DNA from: Thiotrichaceae bacterium
Lineage (GTDB): Bacteria > Pseudomonadota > Gammaproteobacteria > Thiotrichales > Thiotrichaceae
DNA: 21,569 bases
Direction: 5' to 3'
Assembly: GCA_027008885.1 (NCBI GenBank)
Contig: JALVDQ010000430.1
Span: 1-21,569 of the forward strand
The translations under genes and the position numbers were made by a program. Position 1 is the first letter of the stretch. Every line of letters starts with the position of its first letter. Under the pieces are notes generated by a model. That model saw nothing but the letters and a program-made list of their open reading frames with translations, was not told the origin of the DNA and did not search any database. Positions 38 through 21,569 of the stretch are shown here, piece after piece.

Positions 38-286
38 ATGCAAAGGTTAAGTATTACGATTGATGATACTATTAAACAAGAACTAGATAAGATCACCGCA
101 AAAGGTGAAAGAGCTGCTTTTGTATCAAAAGCAATAAAAAAAGCCATTGATGATTACCACAAGCAACAGGCTTTAAAAAAAATACTCGCTTTCAAGCCGT
201 ATAAAATTGATCAAGACTCCATTGATGTTTTACGAGAAGTTAGAGATAGCCGTAGTACACAAGTTATTGAAGCAAGCAAAAGCTAA
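38..286 (+). CDS. Ribbon-helix-helix antitoxin (VapB-like)
   Basis: An 82-residue protein. It opens with a short beta strand (RLSITIDD, residues 3-10) followed by two predicted helices (about 11-21 and 27-41), the layout of CopG/Arc-type ribbon-helix-helix DNA-binding domains. The lysine-rich tail (about 42-82) would be the toxin-binding, protease-sensitive part. It lies 14 nt upstream of a PIN-domain gene on the same strand, the classic antitoxin-toxin order. Its role would be to neutralise that nuclease and, with it, repress the operon through the repeat at 5-34. Function is inferred from fold and neighbour. The ATG at 38 is the only sensible start. Confidence 0.75.
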   Translation: MQRLSITIDDTIKQELDKITAKGERAAFVSKAIKKAIDDYHKQQALKKILAFKPYKIDQDSIDVLREVRDSRSTQVIEASKS

Positions 287-300
287 GGAATGTGTAAAAA

Positions 301-729
301 GTGATTCAATGCTATGTAATAGACAGTTCTGTTTTCAATAAGCTATATCTTGATGAGGTTGACAGGGATAAAGCACAAAATCTGTTTGTTCAGGCAGCAG
401 AAAATAAAGCCAAACTTTTTGCGCCTGATCTATTATTTCTGGAAGTCATTAATACAGCCCAGCGATGTGGCGTACCGGTGGAAAAAATTGTTGAACTGTT
501 AGACGCGCAGAAATATTTAATGCAGATACGGACGTTTAATGAAGAAGAAAAGAAAGTGGCATTAGAAATCATGTCGCAAGGGCATCCCAGTAGCGGTTAT
601 CCTTCAATTTATGATGCAATCTTCCATGCAATGGCTCTCTGCAATGATGCCATTTTTATTACAGCAGATAGACGACACTACGAAAAAGCAAAACAGCTTG
701 GGTCTATCTATTTATTAAATTCAATGTAG
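301..729 (+). CDS. PIN-domain toxin ribonuclease (VapC-like)
   Basis: A 142-residue single-domain PIN protein with a GTG start; AAGGAA just after the antitoxin stop (about 285-290) is a suitable ribosome binding site. The acidic metal-binding set is visible: Asp8 in VIDSSVF, Glu48 in FLEV, Asp105 in YDAIFHA and Asp123 in ITADRR. PIN toxins are Mg2+-dependent endoribonucleases that cut tRNA or rRNA when the antitoxin is degraded; the target here cannot be read. Length and residue spacing are normal, so it looks intact. The pair is probably one transcript. PIN plus RHH pairs are often horizontally spread, and the repeat-bracketed Uma2 gene just downstream suggests an accessory spot. Confidence 0.85.
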   Translation: MIQCYVIDSSVFNKLYLDEVDRDKAQNLFVQAAENKAKLFAPDLLFLEVINTAQRCGVPVEKIVELLDAQKYLMQIRTFNEEEKKVALEIMSQGHPSSGYPSIYDAIFHAMALCNDAIFITADRRHYEKAKQLGSIYLLNSM

Positions 730-13915: not shown

Positions 13916-14336
13916 GCTGCTCCAGTATGCTTTGCTGTCCCATTTGATATGCCTTTAGAAGAGCCTTGCTCATGGCTTGATTTTCTTCAAGTTGCTCAAT
14001 ATGAAGTATCTCGGAGGCAATTTTTTGTATCACATCCTGAGCTTTTTGCGTATTGTTTTGCTGCTTTTTTTGAATAAAACACTGCAAGTCAAACTGCCCA
14101 TCAGAATAGCATTCGCTTGCCAGTCCGGTTGCCTGACTAAAGAAAACCGGGGATGATTCCAGAACTTCATATTCATAAGAATAAGGATCTATGTTATTTT
14201 CAGCAGCTATTTGATGAAAAACAGAAGAAAAATCATTATGTTTCTGGATATAGTCATCCAGATCAATAACGCTTGAGGGTTGATAATCCTTGCCCTTGAA
14301 CGAAAATGGTATTGTCACCGTGATTGTGTTTTTCAT
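13905..14336 (-). CDS. Conserved-looking hypothetical protein, unrecognised
   Basis: A 143-residue soluble, acidic protein without signal peptide. The N-terminal part (TITVTIPFSFKGKDYQPSSV) is predicted beta, and the rest mostly helical with a Gln-rich tail. An extended stretch IDPYSYEYEVLESSPVFFSQ precedes two Cys (about 77 and 86). I do not recognise the family. It overlaps the downstream membrane-protein gene by 11 nt, suggesting a functional pair. Its leader runs straight into C-run/T-run motif copy 5 (14342-14370): on this strand the G-run and GGG before the ATG would be the only Shine-Dalgarno-like sequence. Confidence 0.6.
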   Translation of the reverse strand: MKNTITVTIPFSFKGKDYQPSSVIDLDDYIQKHNDFSSVFHQIAAENNIDPYSYEYEVLESSPVFFSQATGLASECYSDGQFDLQCFIQKKQQNNTQKAQDVIQKIASEILHIEQLEENQAMSKALLKAYQMGQQSILEQHDN

Positions 14337-14341
14337 TTTAT

Positions 14342-14594
<253 letters not shown>

Positions 14595-14666
14595 GAGATG
14601 GCTATCTGATTTAAACAAATAACAAGATGACAGTGCCATAAATCTGCCAGTATACTTTGATGGACT

Positions 14667-16781: not shown

Positions 16782-17630
16782 TTAAAGATCGATAATGGTG
16801 TGTATATCGCCTTCTTTTGCAATATAGACCTTACAGGCAGGATAGTGATGTTTCATCCATTTCCGGGAATCTTTTCCTATTTGGTCTAACTGCGCATCTG
16901 TTCGTGCTGGATCATGGTGAAACAGGATAAGCTTTTTTATCTTGGCATCAACTGCCAGTTGTAATACCTGTGATATTAATGAATGTCCCCAGCCATGAAT
17001 TTTTTCGAGGTCTTCATCAAGATACATTGCATCATGTATAAGACAATCAACATTCTTCAAAAAATCAACCCATTCCTGATAAGCTGTTACGGGTGGCTTT
17101 GGCGGATCAAGCTCATTGTCCGTTACATACGCCATACTACCCCGAGGTGTTTCCAGACGATAGGCAGAGCCACCTCCTGGATGGTTTAACGATCTGGAGT
17201 AGATTTTATTCTCGCCTATTTCCAGTTTGTTATTATCTATTGAAAGTAAAATAACCCTGGCTTCAAGCTTGTCACCAGGCACAGGAAAATGCGGGTTGGT
17301 CATTTGGGTTAAAACCGCATGTGCATTAACGTCTTTTAAATGCGCAGTGAGTAAATTAATGACCTGATTTTTTTTATATGCTGGAAGAAAAAAAGGAAAG
17401 CCCTGTATATGATCCCAGTGGTAATGACTAAACAATAAGTTGATCTCTTTTGACAGTTCTTGCGCGATCAAATCTTCGCCAAGTTTTCTTATTCCTGTAC
17501 CCGCATCAAATATAAATAAGGTACCATCATCAGCTTCAACAAAAACACAGGATGTATTTCCGCCGTATCGGACGGTCTCTTTCCCTGGTGAAGCAATCGA
17601 GCCACGCACACCATAGAATTTAATTTGCAT
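16782..17630 (-). CDS. Metallo-beta-lactamase-fold hydrolase
   Basis: A 282-residue protein. It starts MQIKFYGVRGSIASPG and has YGGNTSCVFVE, a common opening of one broad MBL subgroup. The metal site is complete: HYHWDH (69-74; His69, His71, Asp73, His74), His150 in LNHPGG, Asp171 in VTDNE and His238/His239 in LFHHDP. That ligand set and the length fit RNase Z/PhnP-like phosphodiesterase-type members, some of which act on cyclic nucleotides or related esters. The substrate cannot be named. No signal peptide, so cytosolic. It is 116 nt downstream of the FecR-domain gene on the same strand; a 10-bp inverted repeat in that gap may separate the transcripts. Confidence 0.85.
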   Translation of the reverse strand: MQIKFYGVRGSIASPGKETVRYGGNTSCVFVEADDGTLFIFDAGTGIRKLGEDLIAQELSKEINLLFSHYHWDHIQGFPFFLPAYKKNQVINLLTAHLKDVNAHAVLTQMTNPHFPVPGDKLEARVILLSIDNNKLEIGENKIYSRSLNHPGGGSAYRLETPRGSMAYVTDNELDPPKPPVTAYQEWVDFLKNVDCLIHDAMYLDEDLEKIHGWGHSLISQVLQLAVDAKIKKLILFHHDPARTDAQLDQIGKDSRKWMKHHYPACKVYIAKEGDIHTIIDL

Positions 17631-17637
17631 ACTAAGA

Positions 17638-17715
17638 AAGCCCTTATGACTGAATCCTTGAAGTCAATACAGTTTTGAATCATAAGCTATTGATTTTAAA
17701 GTGAGATAAGGGCTT
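17638..17715. repeat. Inverted repeat in the fecR-MBL gap
   Basis: AAGCCCTTAT (17638-17647) and ATAAGGGCTT (17706-17715) are perfect 10-bp inverted repeats, 58 nt apart, and fill the gap between the FecR-domain gene and the MBL-fold gene. A smaller TGACT/AGTCA repeat (about 17647-17666) lies inside. They could be a long-armed hairpin or a pair of regulator half-sites. Confidence 0.4.
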
Positions 17716-17746: not shown

Positions 17747-19162
17747 CTACTCAACAATGAAAACACCCTCAATATGATTGGTTTCCCTGTTATTTTCTGA
17801 AAATCCAAAACTGCCTAATACTGCTTCAGCCTTATTTCCAATAAAGTCACCGTTAATAAACCCACTGGCACCACGGACAGCTCCTGAATTATCTGGATTT
17901 GAATCAATGACATTGACACCATTTAACTGTAAATCCATATCACCTGCTTCTATTTTCCCATCAAACACCGCTATCCATGTATCTTTAGGCGTATTCGCCG
18001 ATAATGCTCCATTAGTGACATTACCTGACTCAAAGTTCACATCCATTTGTACCTGAAGGTTGCTAACTTGTCCTGATGATGCACTTAACAGGCTTTCACT
18101 AACATTATCATAGCGAACAGTACCCGTTCGGGCTGCTACAACTGATGGATCTGATTTATCGTATGCTGCCCAGATCATTCCTTCTGAGGGAGAAGTAGAA
18201 TCAATATCCCTTGTTATATTTATTATGGAAAATTTATTCCAGAAGCCCCAGCTTAGTTTATATCCACCGACCGCCTGCTGAAAATTGGAAAGCTGTCCAG
18301 TGCTTGCCAACTGATATTGTTCCAGACCTACTTTAAATACAGGATTATTTGAATCTATGCTGTCAGCCTTTGAAATTATTTCGGTTGATGGGCGGGTTCT
18401 ATCTATATTTAGACCATTGTGATTAAATACTTTCCCTGCTGGAAGCGGCAATGATTGTAATAATGGTTCAATAACAGTTTTTCTGGATGCTTTAGCTACA
18501 CCACTGTTACGCTTGAGATTTATATTAGAACTATGCCCTGCTCTAAAAACATTGGGTACCTGTTGCAAGCCTTTGCATTTTCCCTGACGATCTATAAACA
18601 CAAACATATAAGGTTGTGAGCGACCAAGTAGCATATTACATCCATTTTTCAGGCGAGACCTTAAATGAATAATTCCTTCCCAGGTCGCAACATACATGCC
18701 ATTTGAAACGATCTCGACTTCATAGTCTGTGCCACGAATACCAATGGTGGCTAATGGTGTACGAAGTTCATAGGCTTTTTTATTACCTTTGCCTATCGCA
18801 CCGGTAATGGTTCGTAATCCACCCTTTAGCAACTCAAGCAGGGCTGAATTTGATGTTGCTCCCCGAGTGAATTTATATTTTTTTATTTGTAGTACAGAAT
18901 TTTCCTGGAGTGAAATTATTGCCTGATCAATCATTCTGAATTGTGCGCGAGCACTCCGACCGACATGAATCTCGTCTTTTTCAAAAATTGGAGAACGCCT
19001 TTTTAATCCGATATTTCCACTGCTTCGTTTTGCAATTACGCTTCCTCTTGTTAAAAGTGTTTTTCCTGCCTGTTTTTCTCTTGCAATGACAGGATGTGCC
19101 AATAAACACAGGGACATAAATAACAGTATGTTTTGTAAAAATTTTTTATTAATCCCATTCAT
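17747..19162 (-). CDS. Exported FecR-domain protein with TbpB-like C-terminal beta-barrel
   Basis: A 471-residue protein from ATG 19162, chosen because it begins a clean Sec signal peptide (MNGINKKFLQNILLFMSLC, cut after PVIA) and has GGGAA upstream. A longer frame to 19279 would only add residues inside the upstream gene. Residues ~35-170 form a FecR domain (GSVIAKRSSG, SLQENSVLQI, LLKGGLRTITG, TPLATIGIRGTDYEV). After a linker, ~298-471 are beta-rich: SWGFWNKFSI, TGTVRYDNV, QVQMDVNFESGNVTNGAL, GDFIGNKAEAVLGSFGF (437-453), IEGVFIVE at the end. This resembles the eight-stranded TbpB-type barrel of Slam-secreted proteins. No cytoplasmic or membrane segment, so it is not a sigma-factor regulator like FecR proper. 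It overlaps the Slam-like gene by 14 nt, supporting a cargo role. Confidence 0.6.
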   Translation of the reverse strand: MNGINKKFLQNILLFMSLCLLAHPVIAREKQAGKTLLTRGSVIAKRSSGNIGLKRRSPIFEKDEIHVGRSARAQFRMIDQAIISLQENSVLQIKKYKFTRGATSNSALLELLKGGLRTITGAIGKGNKKAYELRTPLATIGIRGTDYEVEIVSNGMYVATWEGIIHLRSRLKNGCNMLLGRSQPYMFVFIDRQGKCKGLQQVPNVFRAGHSSNINLKRNSGVAKASRKTVIEPLLQSLPLPAGKVFNHNGLNIDRTRPSTEIISKADSIDSNNPVFKVGLEQYQLASTGQLSNFQQAVGGYKLSWGFWNKFSIINITRDIDSTSPSEGMIWAAYDKSDPSVVAARTGTVRYDNVSESLLSASSGQVSNLQVQMDVNFESGNVTNGALSANTPKDTWIAVFDGKIEAGDMDLQLNGVNVIDSNPDNSGAVRGASGFINGDFIGNKAEAVLGSFGFSENNRETNHIEGVFIVE

Positions 19163-19835
19163 AACGAATTCCCATCTTGATTTCATTTCTGTTGACATCA
19201 TAAAGATTAAGATTGCTTTCATTTGCAATATGACTTGCAGAAAATACAAGAATTGCCTTATCTGAGGTCTGAAATTCATGCGTCAGCCGAATGGAATAAC
19301 GATTATCTTTTCTCTTGTCAGGAAAAACAGGGTAAGCTGCCTGATGTTTGTAAATATTGTAATTCAGATTTAAAAAAGACGTATTCTTTGCGTTCCATTC
19401 GTGACTTGTCTTGAAGGCAAGCCCAAGTATGTTTCGGCTAAATTGTTTTCCTGCTTTATGCTCAGGAAATTCTTTGCCTAAATGGAAACCAAGTAAATAT
19501 TGGTTTCTTCCGTTTGTTTTACCTAATGTAATCCCCAGTAGTCCCCTGTTACGATCTGTCAAAGGCTTTTTATTGTTATGATAATTTTCAAGACTAATAG
19601 ATGTATTTAAAAGAGTTTGTTGATTTAGCTGCTTTTTTAGAATTGCATCAATACCCAAGGTATTGCTATATAAATTACCATCAAGAAAAACAGGTCTGCT
19701 CCTTGCATTTAACTGATATTGTCTGTTTTTGTGATTAATCGAAAAACCGGTGCGTAAATCCAGCTCAGTAAAATCAAAGTCAGTTTTTTTGAAATATTTT
19801 CTATGATTTATATTGGCTAAAAAAATGTACTTTTT
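19149..19835 (-). CDS. Slam-like (DUF560) translocator, C-terminal barrel part, frameshifted
   Basis: This is the continuation, in another frame, of the gene starting at 20452. The frame is open from the homopolymers at 19819-19836 to the stop at 19149 (about 228 codons); an ATG at 19658 is internal. It reads as alternating transmembrane beta strands: KYIFLANINHRKYF, LDLRTGFSINHKNRQYQLNA, NQYLLGFHLGKEF, NTSFLNLNYNIYKHQ and a terminal strand NRNEIKMGIRYEWD ending in an aromatic pair, as outer-membrane barrels do. The ESNLNLYDVNRNEI stretch resembles the end of DUF560 barrels. Together with the N-terminal part it would make a ~434-residue protein, near Slam length. Overlaps the FecR-domain gene start by 14 nt. 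Confidence 0.6.
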   Translation of the reverse strand, partial: KKYIFLANINHRKYFKKTDFDFTELDLRTGFSINHKNRQYQLNARSRPVFLDGNLYSNTLGIDAILKKQLNQQTLLNTSISLENYHNNKKPLTDRNRGLLGITLGKTNGRNQYLLGFHLGKEFPEHKAGKQFSRNILGLAFKTSHEWNAKNTSFLNLNYNIYKHQAAYPVFPDKRKDNRYSIRLTHEFQTSDKAILVFSASHIANESNLNLYDVNRNEIKMGIRYEWD

Positions 19836-20452
19836 TGTCGCTTGCCAGCTTCTCGCATTAACTGAAACTTCGCTTCTGCAAAACCACTTTGTTGTTTTAC
19901 GACAGAATCATTTAAAGTCACCAAACCAAATCCGGGTAATTTGATTTCAGAATTTTCAGTACCAAAATTAATATTGCTATCATAGCCAATAGAGAAAGCT
20001 GTCAGCTTTTTTATGACTGCCTTTTTTGAGGATTCATCCTTTCTTTGCAATTCAGCAATATAGATACCTACATTATTTTTAACATTTGGCGGAGGTGATA
20101 AAGACAGAACATCCTGAAATTCCTTGATAGCAGCTTTTTTGTTATTAAGTTTTAAATAGGCACGAGCAAGATCCAGCCTTGGGCGAATAACATTTGGATT
20201 TGCCACAGTTACACGATCAAGTGCAAACACCGCTTCATTATAGTGACCTGTTTCAAGTGCAGACAAGCCGTATAAATAATCAAAACGGGGATCTCCTTCA
20301 TTTTGAGAGCGCTGTTTTAAGGCTTGTTTATATGCTTTGCCATACTGTTTTTGTTGAATATGGTATTCAATCACAGGGTAGCTCCGGGCATACACTGTGA
20401 TTGAAGACAAGAAACCAAAAAACAAAAAAAAGAGTTTGTGTTTTATAAGCAT
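19817..20452 (-). CDS. Slam-like (DUF560) translocator, N-terminal TPR part, frameshifted
   Basis: A 211-residue fragment. It has a signal peptide (1-22, LFFLFFGFLSSITVYA), a TPR region (~27-135: YGKAYKQAL, FDYLYGLSALETGHYNEAVF, PRLDLARAYLKLNNKKAAI) and the first barrel strands (AFSIGYDSNINFG, 152-164; FAEAKFQLM). Then it stops after RQKSTFF. A periplasmic TPR domain followed by a barrel opening with GYD.N.N is the Slam/type XI secretion layout. Slam proteins move cargo with a small C-terminal barrel across the outer membrane. The stop results from a one-base frame change, either in an A6 run (19831-19836) or a T7 run (19819-19825, minus strand). It starts 57 nt after the PKD-repeat gene, with AAGGGA before the ATG. 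Confidence 0.65.
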   Translation of the reverse strand: MLIKHKLFFLFFGFLSSITVYARSYPVIEYHIQQKQYGKAYKQALKQRSQNEGDPRFDYLYGLSALETGHYNEAVFALDRVTVANPNVIRPRLDLARAYLKLNNKKAAIKEFQDVLSLSPPPNVKNNVGIYIAELQRKDESSKKAVIKKLTAFSIGYDSNINFGTENSEIKLPGFGLVTLNDSVVKQQSGFAEAKFQLMREAGKRQKSTFF

Positions 20453-20509
20453 AATTCCCTTTTGGGTTGATATAAAAAATTAGCCAAGCTACTTATCTCC
20501 GATCAATTC

Positions 20510-21569
20510 TTAATAAACTACTTCTATTGAAACACTATCTGGAATTGAATCTACCTGACCATCGTTTACGATCAGTTTGGCAATATAAGTACCAAACTGA
20601 TCAGGAACAAAGGAAGGAGATACCGTGTCAGAGCCAGTTAGAGGAACACTATTTCCACCAGGATCTGTCAAGGTCCAGGAATAGCTTATATTATCCCCAT
20701 CAGGGTCATAAGAATTGGATCCATCTAAAGTTACAGTATCATAAAAAATAACTGTCTGGTCGACACCTGCATCGGCTATCGGTTTGGTATTCAAGGTACT
20801 GATTGTTACTGTATCTGCTACCGAGTCAGTCTTGCCGTCATTTACGATGAGCTGGGCTATGTAAGTTCCTGGCAGATCAATAAGAAAGCCGGGATTGACT
20901 ACTGCGGGATTATCAAGAGCTGCCTGACTGCCTGTCGGGATACTGCTTAGTGACCACAGATAGGTCAAGGGATCGCCATCTATATCGTGGGAGGCTGAGC
21001 CATCCAGTGTGATTTTATCTCCTATGTGTCCCGTCTGATCAGCACCTGCATCAGCCACCGGTTTGGTATTGAGGGTAGTGATTGTTACTGTATCCGCTAC
21101 CGAGTCAGTTTTGCCGTCATTTACAATGAGCTGTACGATATAGGTTCCCGGCAGATCAATAATAAAGCCGGGATTGACTACTGCGGGATTATCAAGAGCT
21201 GCCTGACTGCCTGTCGGGATACTGGTCAGTGACCACAGATAGGTCAAGGGATCGCCATCTATATCGTGGGAAGCTGAGCCATCCAGTGTGATCTTGTCTC
21301 CTATGTGTCCCGTCTGATCAGCACCTGCATCAGCCACCGGTTTGGTATTGAGGGTAGTGATTGTTACTGTATCCGCTACCGAGTCAGTCTTGCCGTCATT
21401 TACGATTAACTGTGCAATATAAGTTCCCGGCAGATCAATAATAAAGCCGGGATTGACTACTGCGGGATTATCAAGAGCTGCCTGACTGCCTGTCGGGATA
21501 CTGCTTAGTGACCACAGATAGGTCAAGGGATCGCCATCTATATCGTGGGAGGCTGAGCCATCCAGTGTG
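20510..21569 (-). CDS. PKD/Ig-like repeat surface protein, 3' end only
   Basis: The frame is open to the window edge, so the start is missing; a TTG at 21526 lies inside a repeat and is not a start. The 352 visible residues are tandem ~93-residue PKD-type beta-sandwich domains. Each has KPVADAGADQT, ITLDGSASHDIDGDPLTYLW, a mid block GSQAALDNPAVVNPGFIIDL and GTYIAQLIVNDGKTDSVADT. The last domain is divergent (SNSYDPDGDNISYSWTLTDP) and ends in SIEVVY, without RTX repeats, an LPXTG site or a PEP-CTERM anchor. Such proteins are usually secreted or surface-exposed and often adhesive. It is the first visible gene of the operon with the Slam-like and FecR-barrel genes. Confidence 0.8.
   Translation of the reverse strand, partial: TLDGSASHDIDGDPLTYLWSLSSIPTGSQAALDNPAVVNPGFIIDLPGTYIAQLIVNDGKTDSVADTVTITTLNTKPVADAGADQTGHIGDKITLDGSASHDIDGDPLTYLWSLTSIPTGSQAALDNPAVVNPGFIIDLPGTYIVQLIVNDGKTDSVADTVTITTLNTKPVADAGADQTGHIGDKITLDGSASHDIDGDPLTYLWSLSSIPTGSQAALDNPAVVNPGFLIDLPGTYIAQLIVNDGKTDSVADTVTISTLNTKPIADAGVDQTVIFYDTVTLDGSNSYDPDGDNISYSWTLTDPGGNSVPLTGSDTVSPSFVPDQFGTYIAKLIVNDGQVDSIPDSVSIEVVY
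20782..21569 (-). repeat. 279-bp tandem coding repeats (PKD units)
   Basis: Units at 20782-21060, 21061-21339 and 21340-21569 (cut by the window edge) repeat with exactly 279 bp (93 codons). By hand I count about 18 differences between the first two and about 10 in the 230 nt shared by the last two. Long identical blocks around CTGCCTGTCGGGATACTG suggest recent duplication or gene conversion. Confidence 0.9.

Follow-up and report, generated by a model that had tools for sequence, protein, structure and literature searches.

The window, i.e. the whole 21,569-nt stretch of DNA analysed, ends in three minus-strand genes encoding a PKD-repeat protein, an outer membrane protein (OMP) with TPRs and a beta-barrel, and a FecR-domain protein with a C-terminal lobe (FecR-lobe protein). 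All three genes were found as described in the initial annotation (Table 1). The 14-nt overlap proposed for the last two was likewise confirmed, at 19162-19149, and the OMP and FecR genes of L021, L025, L026 and L029 overlap identically. The MBL-fold hydrolase encoded next to the FecR-lobe gene matches NF041851 at E 4e-8, where its 32.9 bits fall below the cut-off of 400, and RNase Z models score higher. A similar start of the MBL gene was seen by eye in L021, L022, L028, L029 and L032. The consensus scan for terminators did not pick up the inverted repeat between the FecR and MBL genes, the promoter scan gave no excess above shuffled sequences, and the search for RNA families and tRNAs found none.

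Table 1. Position of genes, protein domains and sequence elements in the window.
Feature	Position	Strand	Basis or remark
FecR-lobe protein gene	17747..19162	-	471 aa; ORF, translation, Pfam, homologues
Signal peptide, about residues 1-27, no lipobox cysteine	19082..19162	-	Cleavage site by eye; model helix 6-21
FecR / cell-surface-signalling domain, residues 31-213	18524..19072	-	
Low-confidence linker, residues 214-246	18425..18523	-	pLDDT < 50 at 211-240
TbpB-type handle domain, residues 247-350	18113..18424	-	TbpB structural matches span 247-471
Eight-stranded C-terminal barrel, residues 354-471	17750..18103	-	
Slam-like TPR + barrel OMP gene, frameshifted in assembly	19149..20452	-	Pieces 20452..19817 and about 19901..19149
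Giant PKD/Ig-repeat protein, 3' part	20510..21568	-	Runs off window edge; K319L-like PKD, 142 bits
MBL-fold hydrolase, possible cyclic-nucleotide phosphodiesterase (weak)	16782..17630	-	PF12706; directly downstream of FecR-lobe gene
10-nt perfect inverted repeat, 58 nt between arms	17638..17715	.	Between FecR and MBL genes

The first frame of the OMP gene stops at 19817, and a second open frame spans about 19901 to 19149. An intact OMP of 434 residues, P0158, matches the two window pieces with identities of 100% over 211 residues and 99.6% over 224, respectively. The gene is complete in one frame at 12 of the 13 family loci that carry it, the 13th (L021) being cut by a contig end. Programmed frameshifting or phase variation of the OMP was also considered, alongside the existence of this intact copy.

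When solved structures were searched by sequence, neither the FecR protein nor the barrel piece had a convincing match, and predicted folds were needed. The FecR-lobe protein was modelled at a mean pLDDT of 88.9. Residues 60-213 of the model match PupR-type signalling domains and residues 247-471 match TbpB lobes, with eight strands between residues 354 and 470 and structural matches to TbpB, NHBA and fHbp. The TbpB-type C-terminal domain that had been proposed from the sequence thus holds up as a handle followed by an eight-stranded barrel in the model, PF01298 (TbpB_B_D) matching residues 361-468 at E 6e-4 with 20.7 bits, under the Pfam cut-off of 26. PF01298 matches 41 of 61 FecR-lobe members at E <= 0.01 and is a precomputed domain in P0031, P0060 and P0070; it matched 0/47 of the class-wide FecR partners described below. 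The beta-rich handle, or pedestal, ahead of the barrel is as expected of cargo of the type XI secretion system (T11SS). Among the members with a handle of at least 80 residues (49/61) the lobe spans 206-241 residues and the linker 8-112. At least two further genomes (L083, L089) encode FecR proteins of this kind with two to four barrel domains.

The protein differs from both of the groups that it resembles. TbpB-type Slam cargo comprises TbpB, LbpB, fHbp, NHBA and hemophilin. In contrast to these, the window protein has no lipobox, a pattern present in 3 of the 61 aligned members, and its N-terminal part is a FecR/PupR-like signalling domain with a variable linker. Compared with FecR/PupR anti-sigma regulators, the periplasmic signalling domain is present and a TbpB lobe is added, whereas there is no space for the cytoplasmic anti-sigma domain: the stretch ahead of the FecR domain is a signal peptide of only about 30 residues, and Pfam found no other domain there.

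The barrel protein had been proposed to be of Slam type, and it proved to be a remote relative. The window piece, half of the gene, scores 20.2 bits with SlipAM (PF04575; cut-off 22), 17.8 bits with TPR_Slam (cut-off 35.2) and 40.5 bits with PF14559. DUF2860, of unknown function, is its only barrel-type Pfam match over the cut-off (25.9 against 22.9 bits). Among 48 aligned OMP members, DUF2860 matches 24, BBP2_2 20, SlipAM 18 and TPR_Slam 10, the latter two at E <= 0.01. Five of these 48 rows (P0228-P0232) are distant outliers, two with precomputed SlipAM, and the best SlipAM E-value in the set (9.6e-13) may belong to them. With these outliers left out, an alignment of 21 OMP rows matched six Slams in HHalign at a probability of 98 and E 1.7e-13 over 381 collinear columns. 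In the model of an intact relative (P0121, pLDDT 92) TPR helices at residues 37-151 precede 14 strands; both the N-terminal periplasmic TPR domain and the C-terminal barrel expected of a Slam OMP are accordingly present, the latter being 14-stranded in excerpts of PMC5449769. Foldseek placed the cellulose exporter BcsC, also TPR plus barrel, first. No Slam entry stood among the Foldseek and VIA matches listed for the OMP model, which was not counted as evidence. A SlipAM search of the source genome gave no match at E 0.001, nor did the control. Of 30 over-cut-off SlipAM places in 274 genomes, 16 are FecR-paired OMPs.

Taken together, sequence profiles and the predicted fold support the OMP as a distant Slam/SlipAM homologue with periplasmic TPRs and a 14-strand barrel. 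An unrelated porin family, named at the outset as one outcome that would refute the proposal, finds a point in its favour in that DUF2860 passes the cut-off with SlipAM just under it; it was judged unlikely from the 381-column Slam profile match and the conserved pairing. The locus shares with Slam/type XI systems (T11SS, DUF560) the N-terminal TPR domain, the 14-strand barrel and a gene adjoining that of a TbpB-type barrel protein. It differs in that the partner carries FecR and in some genomes has no barrel, in the recurrent CHASE2 cyclase, and in that the window piece falls under the SlipAM cut-off and far under that of TPR_Slam.

Adjacency of the pair in other genomes, which the initial annotation had made a test of its proposal, was extensive. 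The OMP gene lies directly upstream of the FecR gene in 76 of 77 scored loci of titled genome records, and FecR is directly downstream of 43 of the 47 OMP frames of at least 160 bits, three of the other four lying at contig ends. Named strains carrying the pair are Cocleimonas flava DSM 24830, Alteromonas facilis and Pseudoalteromonas luteoviolacea; as named-strain loci share assemblies with genomes of the family survey, the counts are not independent. Class-wide, starting from OMP matches, FecR is downstream in 47/59. These 47 partners were chosen by a FecR profile, so that their all matching Pfam FecR is circular. A C-terminal barrel was detected in 29 of the 47 by an iterated local barrel HMM and in 5 by the un-iterated version, and most barrels outside the A1 family therefore rest on the iterated profile. 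Neither version matched reversed sequences. Part of the training set of the barrel HMM came from Alteromonadales rows of A1, whose kin it then recovers in the titled-record survey. In all, 50 of 54 frames found by the iterated HMM are FecR frames; of the remaining four, one is a family piece truncated by its contig (L035), and three are located where the FecR frame of L085 ends or beyond that point. At L114 and L115, Slam-like OMPs are paired with a FecR protein that has no lobe at all.

The neighbourhood of the pair repeatedly includes genes for giant repeat proteins and for CHASE2 adenylate/guanylate cyclases. The PKD-type gene, which had been suggested to encode a second surface partner, has a counterpart at other loci as a recurrent giant neighbour, the survey having scored length (600 aa or more), not domains. 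CHASE2 is found in 15 of 16 family genomes with a FecR-lobe gene as opposed to 7 of 20 without (Fisher p 4e-4, a test that ignores shared ancestry). At the loci themselves it occurs at 7 of 13 family OMP loci, where four contigs end too soon, at 17/59 class-wide OMP loci and, within flanks no longer than 6 kb, at 25/77 titled loci. L024 and L028 have no adjacent CHASE2, and no CHASE2 match was obtained in G029, the genome to which L024 belongs. In Alteromonas facilis (L214), OMP, FecR, giant protein and CHASE2 form, in that order, a four-gene run on one strand. In the source genome, contig C455 (L141) carries the start of a PKD-repeat protein and a divergent CHASE2 cyclase, and ends in the same repeat type as the window. 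The CHASE2 cyclase of this genome lies beside the start of a like repeat protein, the linkage of C455 to the window contig C430 being putative.

Related arrangements are known from cyclase signalling. In Sinorhizobium, FecR and TPRs are combined in a single 1209-aa ORF that adjoins a CHASE2 cyclase; unannotated in the record, this ORF is very probably NsrA, judged from position, size and domains. NsrA of Sinorhizobium meliloti is described as an outer membrane receptor for the CHASE2 cyclase CyaK, and residues 600-1200 are reported to form its barrel (PMC7529298, PMC13001267). Pfam found no barrel in the ORF, and in a comparison with the window OMP profile only the TPRs aligned, at a probability of 5. 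The FecR, TPR and outer membrane barrel parts of an NsrA-type receptor are all present here, split over two genes as opposed to the single 1209-aa chain, in which no TbpB lobe was detected. The Campylobacterota cAMP cluster combines a FecR-domain outer membrane protein, a TPR protein, a CHASE2 adenylate cyclase and a phosphodiesterase, for which one pathway is suggested by the authors; Slam homology, a TbpB lobe and a giant repeat protein are unmentioned in section 9 of that paper (PMC9239204). The Burkholderia BiofilmReg operon, in the excerpts of PMC5192318, likewise places a FecR-domain protein beside a CHASE2-domain sensor. It differs in that these are a LysM-FecR protein and a CHASE2 histidine kinase, the main text naming neither TPR nor OmpA; the stimuli of CHASE2 were there called unknown in 2016. 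The recurrence with CHASE2 cyclases and the Sinorhizobium protein speak against the earlier view of FecR in such a protein as far from signalling, which is probably wrong.

The computed domain architecture, modelled folds, homology, OMP-FecR order and recurrent giant repeat protein and CHASE2 cyclase are best explained, with a probability that we put at about even, by a split outer membrane receptor feeding a CHASE2-type adenylate/guanylate cyclase. The FecR-lobe partner, in which a flexible linker connects a PupR-like FecR signalling domain to a TbpB-type lobe, would be exported by Sec. The lobe would then be brought to, or through, the OMP in the manner of a Slam client and meet the outside, possibly acting there together with the giant repeat protein. 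In the periplasm, the FecR domain would remain with the TPRs of the OMP and may pass the state of the complex to the inner membrane CHASE2 domain, changing cAMP or cGMP. More tentatively, and with the chances leaning against it, the OMP may thread the TbpB lobe alone to the surface, with FecR left in the periplasm; a single polypeptide would then cross the outer membrane via the OMP, reporting surface ligand, adhesion or export state to the CHASE2 cyclase. Counted against a receptor were that standard Slam cargo surfaces whole, which would remove FecR from CHASE2, that CHASE2 is found at a part of the loci only, that Pfam found no barrel in the NsrA-like ORF and only its TPRs aligned with the OMP, and the top Foldseek rank of BcsC.

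An ordinary type XI pair, in which the OMP exports the whole FecR-lobe protein, FecR is an extracellular binding module and the cyclase is a separate operon regulator, is unlikely. In its favour, the cargo architecture is complete (variable N-terminal part, handle and eight-stranded barrel; cf. PMC12282271), the signal peptide has no lipobox, the OMP has SlipAM homology, and the adjacency is like that of the Slam-cargo pairs in excerpts of PMC5449769. Against this, the pairing is kept where the FecR protein has no lobe, a periplasmic location of FecR is suggested by the NsrA-like protein and the association with CHASE2, and the barrel is detected in just a part of the class-wide partners, mostly by the iterated profile. 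The initial proposal of the FecR protein as Slam cargo stands as regards fold and ancestry, whereas "cargo" cannot be the whole story, since some Slam-like OMPs pair with a lobe-less FecR protein. We consider it quite doubtful that the complex signals without translocation, with the lobe a periplasmic ligand-binding or plug domain docking on the TPRs or lumen of the OMP, as lobes of the TbpB type are known to be secreted or displayed on the surface (excerpts of PMC5449769) and a near-constant lobe behind a linker of such variable length suits delivery across a barrier. That a porin or other exporter adjoins the FecR gene by chance or general envelope co-regulation, as the Pfam counts and the Foldseek ranking might be read, is extremely improbable and brought close to refutation by the survey, given the adjacency counts, the 14-nt overlap in four relatives and the Slam match.

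In the open-licence PMC literature we found no paper joining type XI (Slam) secretion with FecR-based outer membrane signalling, and "FecR" is absent from the main text of PMC12282271, PMC8406197, PMC5449769 and PMC9090332. The locus, whose gene pair is conserved in marine bacteria, connects the two and looks like a surface receptor assembled from secretion parts. If the receptor reading is true, Slam-family OMPs would be more than exporters, a defined partner chain would be assigned to CHASE2 domains in many marine bacteria, and outer membrane events would be coupled by FecR to second messengers besides sigma factors.

The three minus-strand genes at the end of the window were found, on inspection of open reading frames and sequence, to agree with the initial annotation of a TPR and beta-barrel gene adjoining a FecR protein with a beta-rich C-terminus, next to a PKD-repeat protein. 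The gene for the outer-membrane protein (OMP; signal peptide, TPRs and beta-barrel) is frameshifted in the source assembly, a draft of 2.97 Mb in 494 contigs of which the window is C430; P0158 is an intact copy. In the window's family the gene is whole in 12 of 13 loci, the other being truncated by a contig end, and its 14 nt overlap with the FecR gene is the same in four relatives. Relatives among the matches listed include uncultured Thiotrichaceae, Leucothrix and Cocleimonas.

Coordinates of genes and repeats in the window and in fetched loci (L)
Locus	Position	Strand	Feature
Window	19162..17747	-	FecR gene, 471 aa; start inside OMP gene end
Window	20510-21568		PKD repeats at contig end, very similar to those of L141
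L141 (on contig C455)	3450-6968		PKD repeats at contig end, very similar to those of the window
Window	14290-14622		ORF with short low-complexity tandem repeat in translation, amid ordinary genes (by eye)
Window	38-729		Two small adjacent genes resembling a VapBC-type toxin-antitoxin pair (by eye)
L114	4717-6801		Slam-like OMP and lobe-less FecR pair
L115	5120-7228		Slam-like OMP and lobe-less FecR pair
L083	7397-11401		FecR protein, four TbpB-like barrel matches (un-iterated profile)
L083	11549-14671		Adjoining FecR protein, three such matches
L085	3974-5711		Barrel-profile matches in three frames, at and past FecR frame end

Conservation of the gene pair was evaluated in 274 genomes of the class, where 60 loci around OMP matches, one of them weak (genome G117), yielded 59 OMP frames of at least 70 bits in a six-frame search. 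FecR lay downstream of 47, the contig ended in 4 and 8 had no FecR downstream; among these 8, L111 carried FecR upstream and L135 and L136 were Slams by class-wide Pfam search. Above 160 bits, 43 of 47 frames had FecR downstream. In titled genome records (78 loci kept, 77 scorable) the OMP was directly upstream of FecR in 76, the exception sitting at a contig start. The pair is in other words conserved elsewhere. A barrel was found in 73/77 of these FecR proteins, and CHASE2, a domain found in adenylate/guanylate cyclases, inside the flanks (up to 6 kb) in 25/77, as well as within 17 of the 59 class-wide loci.

The proposal that the barrel protein is a Slam held as remote homology but not for Slam proper. 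Profile comparison of 21 family OMP rows with six Slams gave a probability of 98 and an E value of 1.7e-13 over 381 collinear columns (barrel alone 1.7e-5, 264 columns; TPR alone 2e-7), and the model of P0121, an intact relative (pLDDT 92), has the TPR helices and 14 strands given for Slam in PMC5449769. Against cut-offs of 22 and 35.2 bits, SlipAM and TPR_Slam scored 20.2 and 17.8 in the window OMP piece, and DUF2860 exceeded its own cut-off across the last 78 residues. SlipAM matched 18 and DUF2860 24 of 48 aligned OMP rows; class-wide, 16 of 30 places over the SlipAM cut-off were OMPs with FecR downstream. The top Foldseek match was the cellulose exporter BcsC, which likewise combines TPRs and barrel. 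We regard the OMP as a remote Slam homologue, not a Slam.

Among the 47 class-wide FecR partners a C-terminal barrel was detected in 29 by iterated and 5 by un-iterated profile, and in none by Pfam. The FecR-alone partners in L114 and L115 are about 250 aa long without a lobe, and their OMPs are still over the SlipAM cut-off. Multi-barrel partners occur in L083 (four) and L089 (two); the L083 proteins exceed the two lobes of TbpB. The L085 gene looks frameshifted in its assembly.

In the best-covered family relatives (L025) the order is a divergent CHASE2 cyclase, a giant Ig/PKD protein, the OMP and the FecR-lobe gene, followed in five family loci by an MBL hydrolase recognised by eye. CHASE2 was present in 7/13 family OMP loci; of the other six, four are on contigs that stop early and two have no CHASE2 alongside. 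The window's genome encodes one CHASE2 cyclase, on C455, and divergent to it begins a PKD-repeat protein, which exits the contig in the same repeat kind as opens the window; we infer that this start is linked to the window's PKD end; the similar repeats probably caused the assembly break. Across 36 family genomes, CHASE2 occurred in 15/16 with the FecR-lobe gene versus 7/20 without (Fisher p 4e-4, shared ancestry ignored). The OMP was found in 14 of those 16, the FecR gene being at a contig end in both misses (G003, G034). A second FecR and CHASE2-cyclase arrangement was observed within this family in L037, L039 and L040, with FecR proteins of 423–582 aa, a third gene of weak OMP-profile similarity and, by eye, a cNMP-binding-like protein nearby.

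Among 69 testable titled loci, an ORF of 751–2016 aa directly followed FecR in 54 and one of at least 600 aa preceded the OMP in 10 (seven in the window's family, at 951–1527 aa, and three elsewhere, at 644–654 aa). These counts are by length; repeats were confirmed in all three followers checked (Ig/cadherin-like) and all three family proteins checked (Ig/PKD; L024, L025, L141). Two lineages have these same parts in differing arrangements, which suggests that the parts function jointly.

The nearest known system is NsrA-CyaK. Garnerone reportedly placed nsrA immediately upstream of cyaK in 2018. A plasmid search with the CHASE2 protein returned a Sinorhizobium meliloti region where a CHASE2-cyclase-like ORF has a 1209-aa ORF just before it; in the latter Pfam gives FecR at 85–179 and TPRs to about 606, with no match in the remainder. 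This 1209-aa ORF fits NsrA, described in PMC7529298 and PMC13001267 as the outer-membrane receptor for the signal transduced by CyaK, with a barrel at residues 600–1200. An Ensifer plasmid carries FecR, TPR, cyclase (a match of the CHASE2 query) and MBL genes together. In Campylobacterota, PMC9239204 describes a gene cluster that combines a TPR protein and a FecR outer-membrane protein with a CHASE2 cyclase and a phosphodiesterase, and proposes a single pathway for it.

Searches of open-licence PMC text yielded no paper that connects FecR domains to TbpB or T11SS, and the word FecR is absent from the main text of PMC12282271 and PMC8406197; the combination of FecR with Slam/TbpB thus appears unreported in that text. 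Viewed from the OMP side, the constant partner is FecR; a lobe was detected in many of the partners, not in all. This favours signalling as the putative core function of the pair, in which the Slam-type lobe may act as a surface-facing sensor or anchor.
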